Positions 15,114-39,375 of a DNA stretch of 64,000 nt are shown here, in pieces. Position 1 is the first letter of the stretch. Every line of letters begins with the position of its first letter. This DNA comes from Paenisporosarcina antarctica (GTDB taxonomy: Bacteria > Bacillota > Bacilli > Bacillales_A > Planococcaceae), in assembly GCF_004367585.1 (NCBI RefSeq), contig NZ_CP038015.1:753001-817000 (forward strand). The letters are read 5' to 3'. The translations under genes were made by a program, and so were the position numbers. The notes under the pieces were generated by a model. It ran no database searches, was not told the DNA's origin, and saw only the letters and a list, made by a program, of their open reading frames with translations.

Positions 15114-17063
15114 ATGAATAAAACGATTGGTATATTTGCGCATGTTGATGCAGGTAAAACAACCTTTGCTGAACAATTACTTTTCCATACAAAAAGTATT
15201 AAGCAAAGAGGTCGAGTGGATCACAAAGATGCTTTTCTTGATAGTCATGATATTGAAAGGCAAAGAGGTATTACAATATTTGCAGATCAAGCAATTTTTT
15301 CTTATAAGGATTCAACATATTATTTAATAGATAATCCAGGTCATGTGGATTTTTCACCTGAAATGGAGCGCTCAATTCAGGTGATGGACTATGCCATAGT
15401 GATTGTTAGTGCTGTTGAAGGCGTAGAAGGACATACTTCGACGATTTGGCAGTTACTTAGAAAACACAATATTCCTACGTTTTTCTTTATCAATAAGATA
15501 GATCGAATAGCTGCAGATGTTGAAAGCGTTCTGCAAGAAATTCATTCAGATTTGACAGCTAATGTTTACGATATAACTGACTCTTTTCAACAAGATAATA
15601 TGACGGAAGCACTCATTGAGTTCGTAGCCGAGCGAGATGAAAAGCTGTTGAACTATTATATAGAAGAAGGATATCAAAAGGATTTATGGATAAAGACATT
15701 AAAAGAAATGATTAAAGAAAATAAAATTTTTCCATGTTCGTATGGTTCAGCCTTACAAGACATAGGTGTAATCGAATTCTTAGATAAATTACATCAATTA
15801 ACCTCTACACATTATTCAAATGAAGAAGCATTTTCCGGAAGAGTTTATAAAGTTCGTCATGACGACAAAGGGACAAGAATTACTTTTATTAAAGCCTTGA
15901 ACGGTACTCTAAGTGTGCGAGATGAATTAACTTATGGGAATGATGAGCATAGAACTATAGAAAAAATTACTCAAATTAGAGTTTATAATGGAAGTAAATT
16001 TAAAATGGTTGATCATGTAAATGCCGGGGAATTATTTGCTGTTATCGGATTATCAAATGCATTTACGGGTGATGGTTTAGGAACTTTACACGAAAAAGCT
16101 GTGTATGAAATGATACCCACATTAAAGTCCAGAGTGGTTATAGACCCATTGGTGCATATAAAAGATGCTTTACGAAGCTTTAAGATGTTAGATGTGGAGG
16201 ATCCATCATTAAATGTTAGGTGGGAAGAGCCATTACAGGAAATTCATATTCATGTTATGGGGACTATTCAATTAGAAATATTGAAACAGCTAGTAATGGA
16301 GCGGTTTCATTTTGAAGTATCATTTGAGGAGCCTAAAATTCTATATAAAGAGACGATAGAGTCGACGACAAATGGGTATGGTCATTTTGAGCCATTGAAA
16401 CATTATGCAGAGGTTCATCTGAAAATAGAACCTTCTGAGAGAAATAGTGGAATCACATTTAATAATACATGTCATGCAAATGATTTATCTGTTGGTAATC
16501 AAAACTTAGTACGACAACATCTATTTGAAAAAGCACATAACGGAGTATTGACAGGTTCACCCATAACGGACGTGAAAATTACTCTATTAACAGGGCGAGC
16601 AGATAATATGCATACTTCTGGTGGTGATTTTCGAGAAGCTACATACCGAGCATTGAGACAAGGTTTGGAAAAAACGTCAAACCAATTACTTGAGCCGTTT
16701 TACAATTTCAAAGTGAAAGTAGAGCTCCATCAAATGGGGAAAGTATTATCAGATATTCAAATCGCATATGGCAGTTTTGATTCACCAATAACAGAAGGAA
16801 ATAAAGCGATATTGACTGGCAAAGTCCCTGTGTCAACCTTCATGTATTACGCTGCGGAGCTTGCTTCTTATACACAAGGAAAAGGCATGCTCAATCTGGT
16901 ATTTGGTGGTTATGATCGATGCCATAACGAAGAACAAGTAATAGAGAGAATCGCTTACAATAAAAATGCTGATTCTGAGTATAGCTCATCGTCGGTTTTT
17001 TGTTCAAAAGGAAAAGGATATACCGTTTCCTGGGAGCAGGCAGAAGCCAAAATGCATTGTTAA
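15114..17063 (+). CDS. TetM/TetO-family ribosomal protection GTPase
   Basis: The 649-residue product is an EF-G-like translational GTPase. Motifs are AHVDAGKTT at 9-17 (G1), RGITI (G2), DNPGHVDF (G3) and NKID (G4), followed by EF-G domain II, a domain III with HVMGTIQLEILKQL, domain IV and a C-terminal EF-G_C region. Length equals that of TetM/TetO (about 640 aa). Those proteins release tetracycline from ribosomes. Chromosomal homologues in bacilli may protect against other compounds or may be housekeeping, so resistance is not assumed. GAGGTGG precedes the ATG. The methyltransferase gene follows 37 bp downstream. Confidence 0.85.
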   Translation: MNKTIGIFAHVDAGKTTFAEQLLFHTKSIKQRGRVDHKDAFLDSHDIERQRGITIFADQAIFSYKDSTYYLIDNPGHVDFSPEMERSIQVMDYAIVIVSAVEGVEGHTSTIWQLLRKHNIPTFFFINKIDRIAADVESVLQEIHSDLTANVYDITDSFQQDNMTEALIEFVAERDEKLLNYYIEEGYQKDLWIKTLKEMIKENKIFPCSYGSALQDIGVIEFLDKLHQLTSTHYSNEEAFSGRVYKVRHDDKGTRITFIKALNGTLSVRDELTYGNDEHRTIEKITQIRVYNGSKFKMVDHVNAGELFAVIGLSNAFTGDGLGTLHEKAVYEMIPTLKSRVVIDPLVHIKDALRSFKMLDVEDPSLNVRWEEPLQEIHIHVMGTIQLEILKQLVMERFHFEVSFEEPKILYKETIESTTNGYGHFEPLKHYAEVHLKIEPSERNSGITFNNTCHANDLSVGNQNLVRQHLFEKAHNGVLTGSPITDVKITLLTGRADNMHTSGGDFREATYRALRQGLEKTSNQLLEPFYNFKVKVELHQMGKVLSDIQIAYGSFDSPITEGNKAILTGKVPVSTFMYYAAELASYTQGKGMLNLVFGGYDRCHNEEQVIERIAYNKNADSEYSSSSVFCSKGKGYTVSWEQAEAKMHC

Positions 17064-17100
17064 TATTGAGACAAAGATTAAGAAAATAGAGGTATTGTTT

Positions 17101-17712
17101 ATGAGTGAAAAAGAAAATGATCGATTGCTTCGTATAAAGACCGTTGGTACCCTGGAGGTGTTAAATCAATCAGTTCATTATAATCGCTATGAAGCAACAC
17201 CCTACATGGCATTGGATGAATTTTTTAAAAACTATGAACTAAAAAAGACAGATAGAGTCGTGGACTTTGGATGTGGCAAAGGACGTCTTCCATTTTACGT
17301 CCATCACCATGCTCAAGTATCGGTTGTCGGGGTCGAAATGAGTGGCAAGCTCTACCAGGATGCACTTGAAAATCTCGATAACTATGATCCGAAAGGAAAA
17401 AAAAGGATAGATTCTTTGTACTTTGAAAGATGCCTTGCTCAAGAGTATGAAATTGATTCAAGGGATAATGTGTTTTATTTCTTCAATCCTTTTTCAGTTC
17501 AAATATTTATGAATGTTGTCGGGAATATTCTTAAATCAGTCGATCAACATAAGAGACCTATCGACTTGATTTTGTACTACCCAACGACAGAGTATGTCCA
17601 GTTTCTAGAAACAAGAACAACTTTCGAATTACTGAAAGATATTACTATACCAGGCTTGTACGAACAAAATGAAAACGAACGATTTCTGGTCTTTCAGCTT
17701 CCAGAAATCTAA
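17101..17712 (+). CDS. SAM-dependent methyltransferase
   Basis: The 203-residue product has a Rossmann methyltransferase motif I, VVDFGCGKGRLPF near 59-71, an acidic motif VVGVEMS and YFFNPFS at motif IV. The substrate is unknown. I chose ATG 17101, preceded by AGAGGT, because the longer frame from 16966 overlaps the GTPase gene without homology. It lies 37 bp after the GTPase gene and is likely co-transcribed. Confidence 0.75.
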   Translation: MSEKENDRLLRIKTVGTLEVLNQSVHYNRYEATPYMALDEFFKNYELKKTDRVVDFGCGKGRLPFYVHHHAQVSVVGVEMSGKLYQDALENLDNYDPKGKKRIDSLYFERCLAQEYEIDSRDNVFYFFNPFSVQIFMNVVGNILKSVDQHKRPIDLILYYPTTEYVQFLETRTTFELLKDITIPGLYEQNENERFLVFQLPEI

Positions 17713-19666: not shown

Positions 19667-19915
19667 TTGATTTCCGTTGCAACGACCTTACATGATTCGA
19701 AGCTAGCGCAGCGATGCAGAAACAGAAAACAGCCAGACGTTTTTTCGGCCATGACTCAGCCTCCTAAGGCCAATAGGACGTTTATCATGAAGGTGTTGCA
19801 ACACGATGTGGCATTCTTAATCTTCGTTCCAATTTGCTCCTGCGGGTCTTCACGCTCACGCTATTCCCGTTGGAAAGATATTGCGAGTAACCGCAGGAGC
19901 ACATGTTTTTCTTGC
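19667..19915. repeat. Dispersed intergenic repeat, copy 1 (degenerate)
   Basis: This copy shares segments with copy 2 at 32708-32937: TTTCCGTTGC, TTCGAAGCTAGCG(C/T)AGCGATGC, GGAAAGATATTG and CGAGTAACCGCAGGAGCACA. It is GC-richer than its surroundings and carries no open frame with a ribosome binding site. Frames across it are spurious. Confidence 0.75.
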
Positions 19916-20058: not shown

Positions 20059-20460
20059 CTATCTTTTTTCAATCGCAATACGCAAGTTCGCGATGACTCC
20101 AAGAAGCAATATTAACGAAAAAACCATTTTTTCAAAAGGTGTTCCTAACAATTGTTGTATAAACCCAAAAGACCAAAGTACAACAAAAAACCAACATATA
20201 ACGGTTATTCCTCTTTTGTATTTGTATAACATATTTCCGCCAACCATTAGCGTAAATACTCCTCCAATAATAGAAATAATGGTATTGAAAATAGATATTG
20301 GTAGCTGAGTAGCGAAGGATTCAGACCGTCCACCATTAACCCATGACAATGGAATAATGCCGCTAATAATAAGGACATGGATTAAGATTGTCAAAGAATA
20401 AAAACTAATCGCCATAAATACAGCCGTTTTCATATTAATTTTTCTGAGTTTTTTTAACAT
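20059..20460 (-). CDS. Small integral membrane protein, unknown function
   Basis: The 133-residue product has four predicted transmembrane segments and a basic N terminus and no motif that I recognise. GAGGTGA lies seven bases before the ATG and a terminator follows, so it is probably expressed as a single gene. Confidence 0.65.
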   Translation of the reverse strand: MLKKLRKINMKTAVFMAISFYSLTILIHVLIISGIIPLSWVNGGRSESFATQLPISIFNTIISIIGGVFTLMVGGNMLYKYKRGITVICWFFVVLWSFGFIQQLLGTPFEKMVFSLILLLGVIANLRIAIEKR

Positions 20461-20653
20461 ACAATCACCTCATTTCTTCCCGCAATCATTATATATAATC
20501 TGATAGTATTCTATTACTTTATCTTGTGCCGTATTGCCAACTTTCCCCTTTTTAACCTCACACTCTCCCATATTTGTTCTCATTTTATTCATAGTTGGAT
20601 TTCGGATAGGTATAGGTATCAAATATCATCAACATTATTATTCTTTAACAGAG

Positions 20654-20881
20654 CCTTCTTAGTAAGATGATCTTATAAGAAGGGTGGGCGAAGTGTCGAA
20701 ATCACAAGCCCACCCTCCATATTCTATATATATAAAGGTACAGCAGGTAAAGCGTCAGAAGGGGACTGAAAACCTTTATGTGTCGGGGTGTAACATTCAG
20801 GCCTTATTAATCGTAAGAATGCTTACAAAGCGAAGTGTCTTGCTCTGTATTGATTGAATGTGTTAAAGAACCGATTCAATC
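20654..20881 (+). other. Hairpin-rich intergenic element, possible structured RNA
   Basis: Within 230 bp lie five inverted repeats: CCTTCTTA/TAAGAAGG enclosing TAAGAT/ATCTTA (20654-20683), AGGGTGGGC/GCCCACCCT (20681-20716), TAAAGGT/ACCTTTA (about 20732-20779), GTAAG/CTTAC (20813-20826) and GATTGAAT/ATTCAATC (20852-20881). The first two overlap by three bases and would compete. The element is upstream of the ribA promoter, so it is not that operon's leader. It matches no riboswitch class that I know. Confidence 0.35.
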
Positions 20882-20984
20882 TTAATGAAACCTAATGAGT
20901 TTGATAAACTGAAATTAAGTAAAAGATAAAGTGTATAACGAAACGATAATTAAAAGATAAAGAGAGTTTGAGGACGTTGTAGTT

Positions 20985-21036
20985 AACTTACTTGACAACT
21001 ATAAGTTACAAAAATATAATTACTTACATAAAGTAA
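20985..21036 (+). promoter_or_regulatory. Consensus sigma-A promoter of ribA operon with two inverted repeats
   Basis: TTGACA (20992-20997), a 17-bp spacer and TATAAT (21015-21020) form a perfect consensus promoter. AACTTA-N11-TAAGTT (20985-21007) covers the -35, and TTACTT-N5-AAGTAA (21020-21036) starts at the last base of the -10. Repeats placed this way usually are operators for a repressor. The regulator is unknown; a MarR or HxlR-like protein is only a guess. Confidence 0.75.
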
Positions 21037-21101
21037 CCTTAAGGAAAAGAAACTTTGTTAGTTTTAGTTTTTTATTGAGATTTCAAAAAGGAGATATTAA
21101 C

Positions 21102-21866
21102 ATGAGTAAAGTACAAACTGTTTCAAAACAAGCTCTTGCAGTGTTAGAGGATAAAATTCAATTAATACATTCAAGTCAAGGTTCTATATATTTAGTTGGG
21201 CCAATAAATCTACCCCTTAATTTGTTTGGGGAAACCGTCGTATTTCAATGGTACTGTTGGTTGCAAACGAAAGAAGAAAAAGAAGATATTCATCAAATCA
21301 TCGATAAACTATCTTCTGCAAACCTAGCAGAATTTCAGCAATCAAGTGTTCTCGTTTATGGTGATTTTGAACATGAAGAAGACGCCCTAATGAGAATGCA
21401 TTCAATCTGTCATACCGGGGATATTTTCGGAAGTAAGAGATGTGACTGTGGCTATCAACTCAAAGAGTCAATGCAAATGATCGTGGACCATGGAGCAGGT
21501 GCTCTAATTTATTTAGCTAACCATGAAGGCAGAGGAATAGGTTTATTTAGTAAAGCAATGGCTTATATTCTTCAAGAGAATGGGTATGACACAGTCGAAG
21601 CGAACGAAAGTCTTGGTTTTGTTGATGACTCTCGTAACTATGATGATGCCATTCAAGTTTTAAAAACATTACGTTCGAAACCAGTAACGCTGTTGACGAA
21701 CAATCCTAAAAAACTAGCCGCATTAATTGACGCTGGCCTCCCAATTTCAGGACGTACACCTTTGTGGGGAGATGTTTCGGAATTTAACGAGGCATACTTG
21801 CAAACAAAAATTAAACGCTCTGGGCATCTAGAGGTAGAAGATGAAGGGACTTGTCCAAATGACTAA
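21102..21866 (+). CDS. ribA: GTP cyclohydrolase II (RibA domain only)
   Basis: This enzyme opens GTP to 2,5-diamino-6-ribosylamino-pyrimidinone phosphate, formate and pyrophosphate, the first step toward riboflavin. The 254-residue product has the zinc site CHTGDIFGSKRCDCG and EGRGIGL, EANESLGF, RNYDDA and LLTNNPKK, all canonical. It lacks the DHBP synthase domain that B. subtilis RibA carries, and has an extra N-terminal region of about 50 residues. ATG 21102 has AAAAGGAG upstream. It overlaps ribD by 8 bp. Confidence 0.9.
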   Translation: MSKVQTVSKQALAVLEDKIQLIHSSQGSIYLVGPINLPLNLFGETVVFQWYCWLQTKEEKEDIHQIIDKLSSANLAEFQQSSVLVYGDFEHEEDALMRMHSICHTGDIFGSKRCDCGYQLKESMQMIVDHGAGALIYLANHEGRGIGLFSKAMAYILQENGYDTVEANESLGFVDDSRNYDDAIQVLKTLRSKPVTLLTNNPKKLAALIDAGLPISGRTPLWGDVSEFNEAYLQTKIKRSGHLEVEDEGTCPND

Positions 21867-22953
21867 CCACGAATTTTATATGGATTTAGCTATAAAAAAT
21901 GCGCAAGCGATGAAAGGGCAAACAGACCCGAACCCTCTTGTAGGATCTGTTATTGTCACTGAAAATCGAATTGTTGGAGTAGGTGCGCATTTGAAAACTG
22001 GAGAACCACATGCAGAAATTCATGCAATTCGTATGGCAGGAGAGAACGCACGAGGTGGAACGATTTATGTCACACTTGAACCTTGCTCTCATCATGGGCG
22101 AACAGGTCCATGTGCAGTAGCCATTGTGGAAGCTGGAATAACAAAAGTAATCATTGCGACTCTTGACCCAAACCCCGTAGTATCAGGTAACGGCGTAAAA
22201 ATCCTTGAAGAAGCAGGGATTGAAGTGATTGTGGGTGTTCTTGAAGAATCATCTAAAAAAATGAATGAAGTGTTTAATAAGTTCATTGTGAAAAAGACAC
22301 CTTTCGTTACATTAAAAGCAGGAATTACATTAGACGGTAAAATCGCAACACATTCGTCTAATAGTAAGTGGATTACATCTGAAGAAGCTAGACATGATGT
22401 CCATCAGCTACGAAATGAGCATATGGCAATTTTAGTTGGAGTGAACACTGTAATTGCTGACAATCCAGAGTTAACAACTAGAATTGCAAACGGCCGTAAC
22501 CCAGTTCGTATTATTTTAGATTCTACGCTAAAAATACCACTAGATCGTAAGGTCATTACAGACAAATTGGCTGACACATGGATTTTTACTAGCGAGAACT
22601 TCGACATAGAAAAAAAATCGTTGTTAGAAAGCATGAGTATTTCTGTATTTCCAACTTCTGGTTCGAAGCAGGTAAACCCAAAAGAAGTCATGCGAATTTT
22701 GGGTGAAAAAGGAATTTCATCTTTATTAATTGAAGGTGGAGGCACGATTAATGCAGCCTTTTTAGAAAATAAACTAATCGATAAAGCGATTATTTATATT
22801 GCACCAAAACTAATCGGAGGACAACAAGCACCTACATTTTTAGAAGGATCAGGAATCGATAAAATGGCAGACGCGGTTGACTTACTGGACGCAGATATCA
22901 TCAAAATAGGCAAAGATTTTAAGTTTGTCGGCTATCCAAGTTACACAATATGA
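21859..22953 (+). CDS. ribD: Bifunctional pyrimidine deaminase/reductase RibD
   Basis: RibD deaminates and then reduces the RibA product to 5-amino-6-ribitylamino-uracil phosphate. The 364-residue protein has the N-terminal cytidine-deaminase-like domain with HAE and PCSHHGRTGPC zinc motifs, and a C-terminal reductase domain from about 145 (TLKAGITLDGKIAT, EGGGTINAAFL). ATG 21859 is preferred over 21841 because AAGGGA lies eight bases before it. No ribE, ribH or DHBP synthase gene follows. Confidence 0.9.
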   Translation: MTNHEFYMDLAIKNAQAMKGQTDPNPLVGSVIVTENRIVGVGAHLKTGEPHAEIHAIRMAGENARGGTIYVTLEPCSHHGRTGPCAVAIVEAGITKVIIATLDPNPVVSGNGVKILEEAGIEVIVGVLEESSKKMNEVFNKFIVKKTPFVTLKAGITLDGKIATHSSNSKWITSEEARHDVHQLRNEHMAILVGVNTVIADNPELTTRIANGRNPVRIILDSTLKIPLDRKVITDKLADTWIFTSENFDIEKKSLLESMSISVFPTSGSKQVNPKEVMRILGEKGISSLLIEGGGTINAAFLENKLIDKAIIYIAPKLIGGQQAPTFLEGSGIDKMADAVDLLDADIIKIGKDFKFVGYPSYTI

Positions 22954-22976
22954 TTAAGCAATTGAGGGATACTAGT

Positions 22977-23540
22977 ATGAAATTTGGTTTTGATATCGAC
23001 GATACACTGATCAGTCTAAGAGAACATGCCTTCCATATTTATAATAAAAACTTGAACAAAAACATCCCTATTGATGTTTTTCATGAAATAAAAAAAGTTG
23101 AAATTCATGAAGCATTTGGTCTTACGGCAGAGCAGGGTTTTAACATGTGGAACAGCTCCCTAGAAGAGATTTACTACACATCCTGCCCTCCTTATCCAGA
23201 TGCGGTAGAAACATTGGTAGAACTAAGTAAGCAAGGGCATGAAATTTACTATATAACAGCTAGGCCTAGCGAGCATGGAGAACGTACGAAACAATGGTTG
23301 ATAGAACAAGGTTTTCCTGTACAAGCAGAGAAATTTTTCTGTGGCATGAAAGATCAGGACAAGGTGAAAATCATTCAAGAGTTAAAGTTAGATTATTACT
23401 TTGATGACAAGCCAGATGTTTTGAACACACTTTCGAATGATTCGTTGAAAGTGTATGTTATGAATCAATCGTATAATCAACATTTGACGATTCCAAGAAT
23501 TACTAATTGGTCAGAGCTGAAAGAAATTATAAACAAATAA
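22977..23540 (+). CDS. HAD-superfamily phosphatase (YqfW/5'-nucleotidase type)
   Basis: The 187-residue product shows HAD motif I DIDDTL near 6-11, motif II YYITARP and a late DDKPD motif, as in the YqfW/deoxyribonucleotidase-like group. ATG 22977 has GAGGG upstream; an in-frame ATG at 22950 overlaps the ribD stop. Its position directly after ribD suggests that it removes the phosphate from the RibD product, a step carried out by HAD enzymes in other bacteria. That role is inference; a nucleotidase role is equally possible from sequence. Confidence 0.75.
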   Translation: MKFGFDIDDTLISLREHAFHIYNKNLNKNIPIDVFHEIKKVEIHEAFGLTAEQGFNMWNSSLEEIYYTSCPPYPDAVETLVELSKQGHEIYYITARPSEHGERTKQWLIEQGFPVQAEKFFCGMKDQDKVKIIQELKLDYYFDDKPDVLNTLSNDSLKVYVMNQSYNQHLTIPRITNWSELKEIINK

Positions 23541-23718
23541 AATTTGATTGAATACCGCATTTATAGCTCATCAATTGGTTTGAATAATCTCATTTTACGA
23601 AACCGAGTATGTCATTGGTCAGATAATGGTACAATACTTGTTAAAGGATTATTCTGTTCCATGCATGAATGTTTTCTTGTCCACAAATGGATTTTTATAT
23701 AAAAGGAGATTGAATCAA

Positions 23719-24159
23719 TTGACTAATAAAGTACAAAATGACTTACCAGAAAATTACAATGAACTAAAAAAAGCTGCGAACCGAACGTCTAGTTGGAGAA
23801 CGCGTTTTGATGCAGTAGAAGAGCTAGGTCAGTATAACCATAGTAAAGTCATCGATGTCCTAACGACAAGAATGACTAAAGACCCGGTGTTTAAAGTGCA
23901 AGAGGCTGCTTATCGTCAGCTTAAAGGCTTAGGAGAAGATGTTCAACAACCTAAGCAAACAAAATTCGACATCATAAAAGGGACCTCTAAAATCTTGCTT
24001 CGTATTAAAAAGAGTTTGCCAGCAGATCATTCTTTTAAAGAGTTCGAAGAGAAATTCAAAAAAATGAGACTCGACGTATATGATGCTTACGAAGGTGAAA
24101 AAGGAGCAGGCTTTGATAAGTGGTTAGAAAATGAATGGGCTTCTTTGTTGAAAAAATAA
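23719..24159 (+). CDS. HEAT-repeat protein
   Basis: The 146-residue soluble protein has a HEAT-like helical pair (WRTRFDAVEELGQ, then HSKVIDVLTTRMTKDPVFKVQEAAYRQL near 25-65) and a basic, charged C-terminal half. Function is unknown; such proteins are usually scaffolds. I chose TTG 23719, with AAGGAGA nine to ten bases upstream, and not the ATG at 23626, whose extra residues look non-coding. Confidence 0.65.
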   Translation: MTNKVQNDLPENYNELKKAANRTSSWRTRFDAVEELGQYNHSKVIDVLTTRMTKDPVFKVQEAAYRQLKGLGEDVQQPKQTKFDIIKGTSKILLRIKKSLPADHSFKEFEEKFKKMRLDVYDAYEGEKGAGFDKWLENEWASLLKK

Positions 24160-24174
24160 GAAAATAAACACAAA

Positions 24175-24206
24175 AACTGATTGCAGCTTTCTGCAATCGG
24201 TTTTTT
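24175..24206. terminator. Bidirectional terminator
   Basis: CTGATTGCAG pairs with CTGCAATCGG. T6 follows on the plus strand and T5 on the minus strand, so it serves both convergent genes. Confidence 0.88.
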
Positions 24207-24216
24207 AGTTCTTAAT

Positions 24217-25140
24217 TCATGGAGTTACCACGGATTCCATAACAGTTAATGTAAGTTCAGCCGTATTCATGTTTACACTAGCTCCAATAGGAATAGCTGC
24301 CTTAAAGAGACCATGTGCTGAAGATATATTGCTGATTAAAGGTTTTCCTAATGGTACTAGAAATTCATCGATGATTTCATTGTATGTGACGCCGTAAGAA
24401 GGTTCGCAACTCGTGCATTCCCCCATTAGTATGCCAAAGCAATCGTCGAATTTCCCTGCTAATTTCAAGTGACTTAAGTAGCGATACACGGTGTTGATTG
24501 GTTCATGAGTTTCTTCAAGAAACAAGATTTTTCCTGCGGTATTTATTTCAAAAGAGGTGCCTAACGTGCCAACGAAAGAAGTAAGGTTTCCTCCAACAAT
24601 AGGACCCGTTACATCTCCAGATACTTTGTTTACAAAGGGCATGCCAGGAGGGTTAGTAATTTCCCACGGTGCCGCTATAGCAGAAGTAGCAGCAAAGAAT
24701 TGATTAAAGTTATAAGCAGGCGTTCGGTTATTGAAATCAAGCAATAATAAACTTTGAAATGTTATTAAATCTGAATATTCATACAACGCATTTAGTAACA
24801 CAGTTATATCACTGTAACCTGAAATAATTTTCGGGTTTTGAGCAATCACAGAGAAATTGAGGAATGGAAGGATACTGGCGACTCCAGTTCCTCCTCTAGT
24901 TGGTAAGATACAGTTGACTTCTTTATTTTCAAACATAGCCATCAAATCAGATGCCCTCTCTAGAGGGGTACCTGCTAGGAATCCATTAGAGTTATATACT
25001 TGGTCTCCGATAACAACACTAAATCCCATATTTTCTAATGTAGCAATGCCTTCATTAATCGTGGTAGCATTTATAGGACTACCTAATGTAACGATTCCAA
25101 TAGTGTCACCTGATTGAAGTTGCTTAGGTTTTATCGGCAT
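24217..25140 (-). CDS. LD-carboxypeptidase, peptidase family S66
   Basis: Members of this family remove the terminal D-Ala from peptidoglycan tetrapeptides (LdcA) or inactivate microcin C (MccF). The 307-residue cytosolic protein has the nucleophile motif GYSDIT near 107-112, FLEETHEP with the catalytic Glu, and SSAHGLFKAAIPIG with the catalytic His, in the usual Ser-Glu-His order. GAAGGAG precedes the ATG. It is a single gene, and its substrate is not determined by the sequence. Confidence 0.85.
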   Translation of the reverse strand: MPIKPKQLQSGDTIGIVTLGSPINATTINEGIATLENMGFSVVIGDQVYNSNGFLAGTPLERASDLMAMFENKEVNCILPTRGGTGVASILPFLNFSVIAQNPKIISGYSDITVLLNALYEYSDLITFQSLLLLDFNNRTPAYNFNQFFAATSAIAAPWEITNPPGMPFVNKVSGDVTGPIVGGNLTSFVGTLGTSFEINTAGKILFLEETHEPINTVYRYLSHLKLAGKFDDCFGILMGECTSCEPSYGVTYNEIIDEFLVPLGKPLISNISSAHGLFKAAIPIGASVNMNTAELTLTVMESVVTP

Positions 25141-39130: not shown

Positions 39131-39266
39131 GTACCATTCACAGCCTTTTGAATTTTATATACCTAGTATAACGGTAAATAGTTGAAAGTCACAGGACTGC
39201 CAATAAGCCTCTTGTATCTCTTTCTAACCTTCTGTAGAATGAACTCGTATTATAGTTTAATGTATG

Positions 39267-39357
39267 TACCACAAGGGGAGCCTGTAATGGCTGAGAGTGA
39301 ACGAGAAAAGTTCTAACCCTTAGAACCTGTGAGTTAATGCTTGCGCAGGGATGTGGA
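39267..39357 (+). ncRNA. TPP riboswitch (THI element) aptamer
   Basis: The conserved core is present: GGGGAGCC, then GGCTGAGAGTG, then AACCCTTAGAACCTGTGAGTTAATGC and GCGCAGGGATGTGG. P1 forms from CCACA (39269-39273) and TGTGG (39352-39356). It senses thiamine pyrophosphate and normally shuts off thiamine genes. The gene directly downstream is only a thiT-like fragment, followed by mapB. Confidence 0.95.
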
Positions 39358-39375
39358 TAGAAACCGACTCCAATG

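Follow-up and report, generated by a model that had tools for sequence, protein, structure and literature searches.

A 64,000-nucleotide stretch of the Paenisporosarcina antarctica genome (contig NZ_CP038015.1, positions 753,001 to 817,000; hereafter the window) contains three same-strand genes at 21102-23540 encoding GTP cyclohydrolase II (GCHII), RibD, and an NT5C-type HAD protein. Comparison with related genomes suggests that these form a catechol/quinone-stress operon making 5-amino-6-ribitylaminouracil (5-A-RU), which here supplies riboflavin as well, a tentative reading to which we give a probability of roughly 0.42. Domain searches bore out a preliminary description of the sequence in which ribA (GCHII only), ribD (both domains), and the HAD gene stand tightly spaced on one strand, and in which 3,4-dihydroxy-2-butanone 4-phosphate (DHBP) synthase, lumazine synthase (RibH), and riboflavin synthase (RibE) are missing from the operon.

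Table 1. Features of the operon and its upstream region, in window coordinates.
Feature	Position	Strand	Basis or remark
Second inverted repeat, AACTTA/TAAGTT, around the -35	20985-21007	+	Read from sequence; upstream comparison
Sigma-70-type promoter	20992-21020	+	TTGACA 20992-20997, 17-nt spacer, TATAAT 21015-21020
Predicted HxlR/YodB-type operator (TTACTTACATAAAGTAAC...)	21020-21040	+	Overlaps the -10 and the probable start site
GCHII of the stand-alone, N-terminally extended subfamily (GCHII2)	21102-21866	+	PF00925, 157 bits; 2bz0 alignment
RibD, deaminase and reductase	21841 or (more likely) 21859 to 22953	+	TIGR00326, 414 bits (cut-off 156)
HAD, NT5C family	22950 or (more likely) 22977 to 23540	+	PF06941, 54 bits (cut-off 24.8)

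Riboflavin synthesis and the spread of the operon

A domain search of the window GCHII found a GTP cyclohydrolase II domain only, with no match to DHBP synthase, and the same searches of the window proteins found no ribE, ribH, or ribB in the operon. The solved GCHII 2bz0 aligns with the window protein across the zinc cysteines and the AYxLQxxGYDTVEAN region, the RibD sequence holds the zinc motif (HAE, PCSHHGRTGPC), and both enzymes are apparently catalytically complete. The GCHII stop is overlapped by RibD, and the HAD gene starts on the RibD stop or 23 bp past it. The HAD protein, for which no solved relative was found by sequence, is presumed to be a phosphatase acting on the RibD product. 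In the available text of PMC12051542 the phosphatase of the riboflavin pathway is called an unknown step, for which reports preceding that paper's own finding concern nonspecific HAD enzymes only.

In many genera a flavin monooxygenase (FMO) gene lies between ribD and the HAD gene. It is very improbable that deoxynucleotides or other nucleotides are the substrates of the HAD protein and that the three genes share no pathway. The NT5C match and the lack of a solved relative would be in keeping with this, as would three GCHII-RibD-FMO loci beside which no HAD gene was seen, but the window genome has a separate NT5C paralogue (32% identical, at C1:1399401), and in 19 of 20 relatives' loci, in both clades, the HAD gene stands next to GCHII-RibD, whether FMO is present or not. 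G012 is the twentieth, where the HAD gene adjoins GCHII and RibD is missing; neighbors in these 20 relatives were identified mostly from sequence starts rather than domain scans.

The remainder of the riboflavin pathway is found elsewhere in the 3.97-Mb window genome (G000; C1 is the contig label in coordinates), where locus L004 at C1:327-330 kb has the order FMN (flavin mononucleotide) riboswitch, ribE, ribBA, ribH, with ribD missing. The one other GCHII, within RibBA, and the one RibH both lie near C1:328 kb. There are 2 RibD_C matches in the genome, of which only the window copy reaches a RibD-level score (the other is below about 90 bits), and no other match listed is the size of a RibD. 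Since the riboswitch operon lacks ribD and the sole full RibD found is in the window, riboflavin synthesis apparently must run through the window operon, which would serve this pathway in addition to any other role. The secondary or spare riboflavin supply that the preliminary description had considered is rejected on these grounds. The finding that it had named as a refutation, ribE and ribH having simply moved elsewhere, holds by half, in that ribE-ribBA-ribH is elsewhere but has no ribD with it.

Across a family sample of 151 genomes, GCHII2 is found in 112, and in 108 of these a RibD lies no more than 2.5 kb away. This neighboring RibD is the only full RibD listed in 107 of the 108, the exception being G020, which has an additional riboswitch-linked ribD; no RibD neighbors GCHII2 in G012, G031, G043, or G082. 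An order-wide search (the order being one family) found GCHII2-like matches, with E values to 1e-55, in 176/261 genomes. Quick-search trees were built for both enzymes. GCHII2, joined by the GCHII of two plasmid clusters that we take to be toxoflavin-like by gene content (from Halobacillus litoralis and Bacillus arachidis; L059, L060), splits from RibBA-type GCHII on a long branch with 100% support in the Shimodaira-Hasegawa-like approximate likelihood ratio test (SH-aLRT). The operon RibDs form two clades, each with 100% SH-aLRT, whose deep order relative to the canonical RibD of riboswitch operons is unresolved. A recent translocation of the local ribD is unsupported given these two clades.

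Several individual loci can be added here. G082, a close relative, has a split operon, with RibD-HAD syntenic (L080 5149-6848) and GCHII2 on another contig (L079 6758-7522), the latter without the operator described below. In G127, whose genome also contains GCHII2-RibD-HAD, the ribD of the riboswitch operon is shortened to 331 aa beside ribE (L075 5611-6606) and looks like a decay intermediate. Priestia megaterium plasmids (L057, L058) carry a lone GCHII2, 76% identical, directly downstream of a MarR-family regulator gene. An SSF symporter is encoded upstream of the operon in Solibacillus-type loci.

The predicted operator and the linked genes

TTGACA-17-TATAAT is the sole 12/12 consensus match in 20300-24300, a region in which promoter-like sites overall are not above shuffles (10 versus 13.7), and the closest copy of the operon (locus L006) has promoter elements and spacing identical to those of the window. 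An inverted repeat, TTACTTACATAAAGTAA, lies at 21020-21036 over the -10 and the likely start. It is exact, is conserved in part of the relatives, and is the sole window match within 3 mismatches (chance expectation 0.84 at that looseness). The window operator scores 26.8 bits by the matrix introduced below, with the next-best window site at 10.8. The promoter had been described as perfect and wrapped in inverted repeats; the 12/12 promoter and the 21020-21036 repeat are real, but the AACTTA/TAAGTT repeat is conserved only partly among relatives and is a possible second operator.

Rfam gave no match in 20450-21250 at E values up to 1, in agreement with the earlier statement that an FMN riboswitch core is missing, and on this result we reject a cryptic FMN riboswitch upstream of the operon; none was found at the gathering score in the whole window. 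Two other RNAs were found in the window: a Bacillaceae-1 RNA at 19775-19836 (-), with 42.3 bits (gathering score 35), flanked by a dicarboxylate symporter gene and a small membrane open reading frame, and a thiamine pyrophosphate riboswitch at 39264-39368 (+), with 65.6 bits (gathering score 54.3).

The operator is found in upstream regions from both GCHII2 clades. Searching 16 genomes with a pattern derived from promoters of GCHII and FMO, in which the CatE-like gene played no part, gave 23 distinct exact sites, 10 of them upstream of GCHII2, 11 upstream of a gene for a CatE-like VOC dioxygenase, 2 upstream of FMO, and none anywhere else. If one mismatch is allowed, relatives also have sites before DoxX genes and before hxlR, the latter divergent from YceI. 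A scoring matrix was derived from 10 CatE-like sites; at a threshold of >12 bits it recovered the operator in 57/63 FMO-linked clusters, 6/17 lone FMO genes, and 1/778 other upstream regions, although this test is partly circular because the matrix sites were first found with the pattern from GCHII and FMO promoters. Of the six linked clusters missing the operator, two are at contig ends. In the g4 genomes of one genus (L018, L020-L022), the regions upstream of GCHII2 have no HxlR-type operator and carry a different dyad, GGATAA...TTATCC, so that another regulator may be in charge there.

Two HxlR matches are found in the window genome. The better of them, at C1:378078, carries Cys7 and has YodB (5hs7) as its best solved match (E 1.4e-26). 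An operator shared with CatE-like genes and a genome-encoded HxlR regulator with an N-terminal cysteine are what would be expected of an HxlR/YodB/CatR regulon, and the shared operator supports the specific regulation that the preliminary description had anticipated. In Bacillus subtilis, CatR and YodB both repress catDE, whose role is catechol detoxification, according to the available text of PMC6212828. The modified residue of CatR is Cys7, and in YodB it is Cys6 that is described as redox-sensitive (PMC6943732, in the part available).

In Bacillus-type relatives the operon is adjoined by hxlR, FMO, and even catE. The FMO (PF01494) is related to UbiH, HpxO, and TetX, and at E 1e-40 it is found in 67/112 genomes with GCHII2 versus 0/39 of the others. 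Among solved structures its sequence is closest to 8uiu, "Flavin monooxygenase" (E 5e-44), for which only unrelated papers were among the literature matches listed, and its predicted structure is good (pLDDT, predicted local distance difference test, 89). A scan of named genomes covered 80 FMO loci, the best 80 of 196 relatives. FMO occurs with GCHII in 63 of these and alone in 17. The linked orders are GCHII-RibD-FMO-HAD (49 loci), FMO-GCHII-RibD-HAD (8), GCHII-RibD-FMO (3), and FMO-GCHII (1), with CatE-FMO-GCHII-RibD-HAD once in Bacillus sp. B15-48 and CatE-FMO-GCHII once in Priestia abyssalis. A divergent HxlR-family gene adjoins the cluster in 13/80 loci. FMO is sometimes unlinked from the operon, for instance in Psychrobacillus and P. 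indica, and the unlinked genes have the operator in 5/10 loci read.

The linkage of FMO to the operon in two gene orders, and the inclusion within GCHII2 of the GCHII from the plasmid clusters (whose gene roles we have presumed), could also mean that the operon is a precursor module, in which FMO, or another enzyme where FMO is missing, oxidises 5-A-RU to a dedicated metabolite, for example a signal or antibiotic of an azapteridine-like or oxidised ribityl-pyrimidine type. We consider this unlikely. No FMO is found in the window genome at E 1e-40, and no WD40 or formylglycine-type (FGE-like) gene is present among ten window proteins scanned. A gene resembling S-adenosylmethionine-dependent methyltransferases (16966-17712) is 3.4 kb upstream of the operon, with a symporter gene and other open reading frames in between.

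Other neighbors are suggestive of an electrophile response. The lone GCHII2 of G012 and G031 is preceded on the same strand by an mhqD-like gene, a ligB-type dioxygenase gene, and doxX (families checked for G012), and in G047 an MhqD-like gene comes directly after the HAD gene. No PDB relative of the CatE-like protein was found by sequence, and among the 12 matches listed for its plasmid relatives the annotated ones are named only "VOC family protein". A structure prediction for this protein, based on 2 sequences, reached a mean pLDDT of just 36 and was set aside.

Riboflavin auxotrophs that retain the operon

A match to RibE is missing in 13/151 genomes, and the operon is kept in 6 of these 13 (G083, G088, G096, G098, G110, and G149). 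In all six RibH is missing too, and each has one FMN riboswitch match; G098 is a metagenome-assembled genome with 8% contamination. Since both RibE and RibH are missing, making flavin from the operon product is impossible in these six, and the retention of the operon argues for a use of 5-A-RU other than in flavin. This strengthens the suggestion, already made from the sequence alone, of a precursor module or a use beyond riboflavin. The operator is found in five of the six, the sixth (G098) being cut by a contig end.

The close pair G096 and G110 have identical operators and differ in GCHII by 5 synonymous and 0 replacement changes. Their ratio of nonsynonymous to synonymous substitution rates (dN/dS) is 0.04 for RibD and 0.06 for HAD (range over the three genes 0 to 0.06). 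By these ratios the operon genes of the pair are under strong purifying selection, a reading that assumes that RibE was lost before their split. For G083 versus G149, single-contig auxotrophs of one genus, dN/dS is 0.05 to 0.12 where computable, with synonymous sites near saturation, and the low values therefore say little.

These genomes bear on the main rival to a stress role for 5-A-RU, a stress-tuned flavin supply in which the first half of riboflavin synthesis is placed under an HxlR repressor, FMN and flavin adenine dinucleotide (FAD) rise to serve flavoenzymes, and 5-A-RU has no role of its own. This is a serious candidate, notably in prototrophs such as the window organism, if a less likely one. 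The operon's RibD is the sole full copy in nearly all genomes that have it beside GCHII2, as given above, and RibE is present in 102/108 of them. Some genomes have the operator at FMO, in G087 a DoxX gene that bears the operator is followed by one for an FMN reductase, and a lone GCHII could raise flux in G031 and G012, which also hold a riboswitch-type ribD. It is more difficult to reconcile with the six operon-bearing genomes without RibE and RibH, the operator in five of them, and the purifying selection in G096 and G110.

Interpretation and comparison with known systems

Regulation and linkage are most simply explained if the operon is part of an HxlR-type response to electrophiles (catechol/quinone). 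An HxlR repressor of the YodB/CatR type, probably the C1:378078 product, would bind the operator and repress the operon, and a catechol, quinone, or other thiol-reactive electrophile would release it by modifying the N-terminal cysteine. The CatE-like dioxygenase gene would be released together with the operon, as would FMO in many relatives. GCHII, RibD, and HAD would then turn GTP into 5-A-RU. In the window genome, basal expression of the operon would feed riboflavin via the ribE-ribBA-ribH locus, while under stress the useful product would be 5-A-RU, its phosphate, or, where RibD is missing, the GCHII product. The evidence points to catechol/quinone stress over azapteridine, deazaflavin, or mucosal-associated invariant T (MAIT) cell roles.

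How 5-A-RU would be used under stress can be proposed from its chemistry. It could be an FMO substrate, or its ortho-diamine could condense with o-quinones and dicarbonyls. The reaction of 5-A-RU with methylglyoxal is enzyme-free, o-diaminouracils condense with o-quinones to form isoalloxazines, and the GCHII product condenses with diacetyl. That electrophile-induced 5-A-RU is a deliberate scavenger of o-quinones (yielding flavin-like isoalloxazines) and dicarbonyls is a speculative proposal that we regard as doubtful, though it would fit every architecture, GCHII alone included. The reaction of methylglyoxal with 5-A-RU is also described in the available text of PMC5344979.

Besides the partial circularity of the matrix test and the missing FMO of the window genome, a number of results weigh against the catechol/quinone-stress reading. 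The one-mismatch operator is not enriched in the 16 genomes (71 versus 91 reversed-control sites) or in the window genome (4 versus 9), a control that covers one-mismatch sites. Of the 30 GCHII2 loci with the best scores, 16 have the operator within 200 bp of GCHII2 and 14 lack it, and several operon-bearing genera are without it. The second HxlR match is another potential regulator in the window genome, and the site upstream of the genome's own hxlR is weaker, at 15.1 bits. The names CatE-like and MhqD-like are our inferences, as the MhqD and catechol-dioxygenase models match below the NCBIfam cut-offs. Retention of the operon is mixed among auxotrophs, with the seven other RibE-less genomes also lacking it. 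A literature search on scavenging of quinones by 5-A-RU returned nothing relevant.

If the stress reading is correct, a large group of Bacilli would have the earliest committed steps of vitamin B2 synthesis controlled by quinone/catechol stress, and RibD would be uncoupled from the FMN riboswitch. 5-A-RU, best known as an intermediate and as a MAIT-antigen precursor, would gain a physiological role of its own. Were the scavenger proposal true as well, a vitamin intermediate would be a stress-defence metabolite, kept by some bacteria without synthesis of the vitamin. The auxotrophs that keep the operon allow the role of 5-A-RU to be probed free of confusion with flavin supply.

An open-access literature search of titles and abstract starts found no paper, among those listed, describing this combination of genes and regulation. 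The closest regulatory parallel is with the YodB/CatR (HxlR/DUF24) quinone, diamide, and catechol regulons of B. subtilis (catDE, azoR1, yodC), which the window-type system resembles in having a regulator nearest to YodB with an N-terminal cysteine and in having an operator of the same kind before CatE-like and DoxX genes. The available text on these regulons (PMC6212828, PMC6943732) differs in placing no riboflavin-pathway genes and no FMO in them, and the word riboflavin does not appear in the available text of PMC6943732. The ribDEAH operon of Bacilli shares with the window operon the GCHII and RibD chemistry leading to 5-amino-6-ribitylaminouracil 5'-phosphate. In contrast to the FMN-riboswitch ribDEAH operon, the window operon lacks RibE, RibH, DHBP synthase, and the riboswitch, has an HxlR-type operator instead, includes a HAD phosphatase, and encodes a GCHII of the separate subfamily defined by the 100% SH-aLRT split. 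From toxoflavin-type clusters, whose defining genes we take to be GCHII, RibD, WD40, FGE-like, and methyltransferase, the operon is distinguished by the lack of WD40 and FGE-type genes in the proteins scanned and by its gene order and regulation, while its GCHII subfamily is common to the plasmids of Halobacillus litoralis and Bacillus arachidis.

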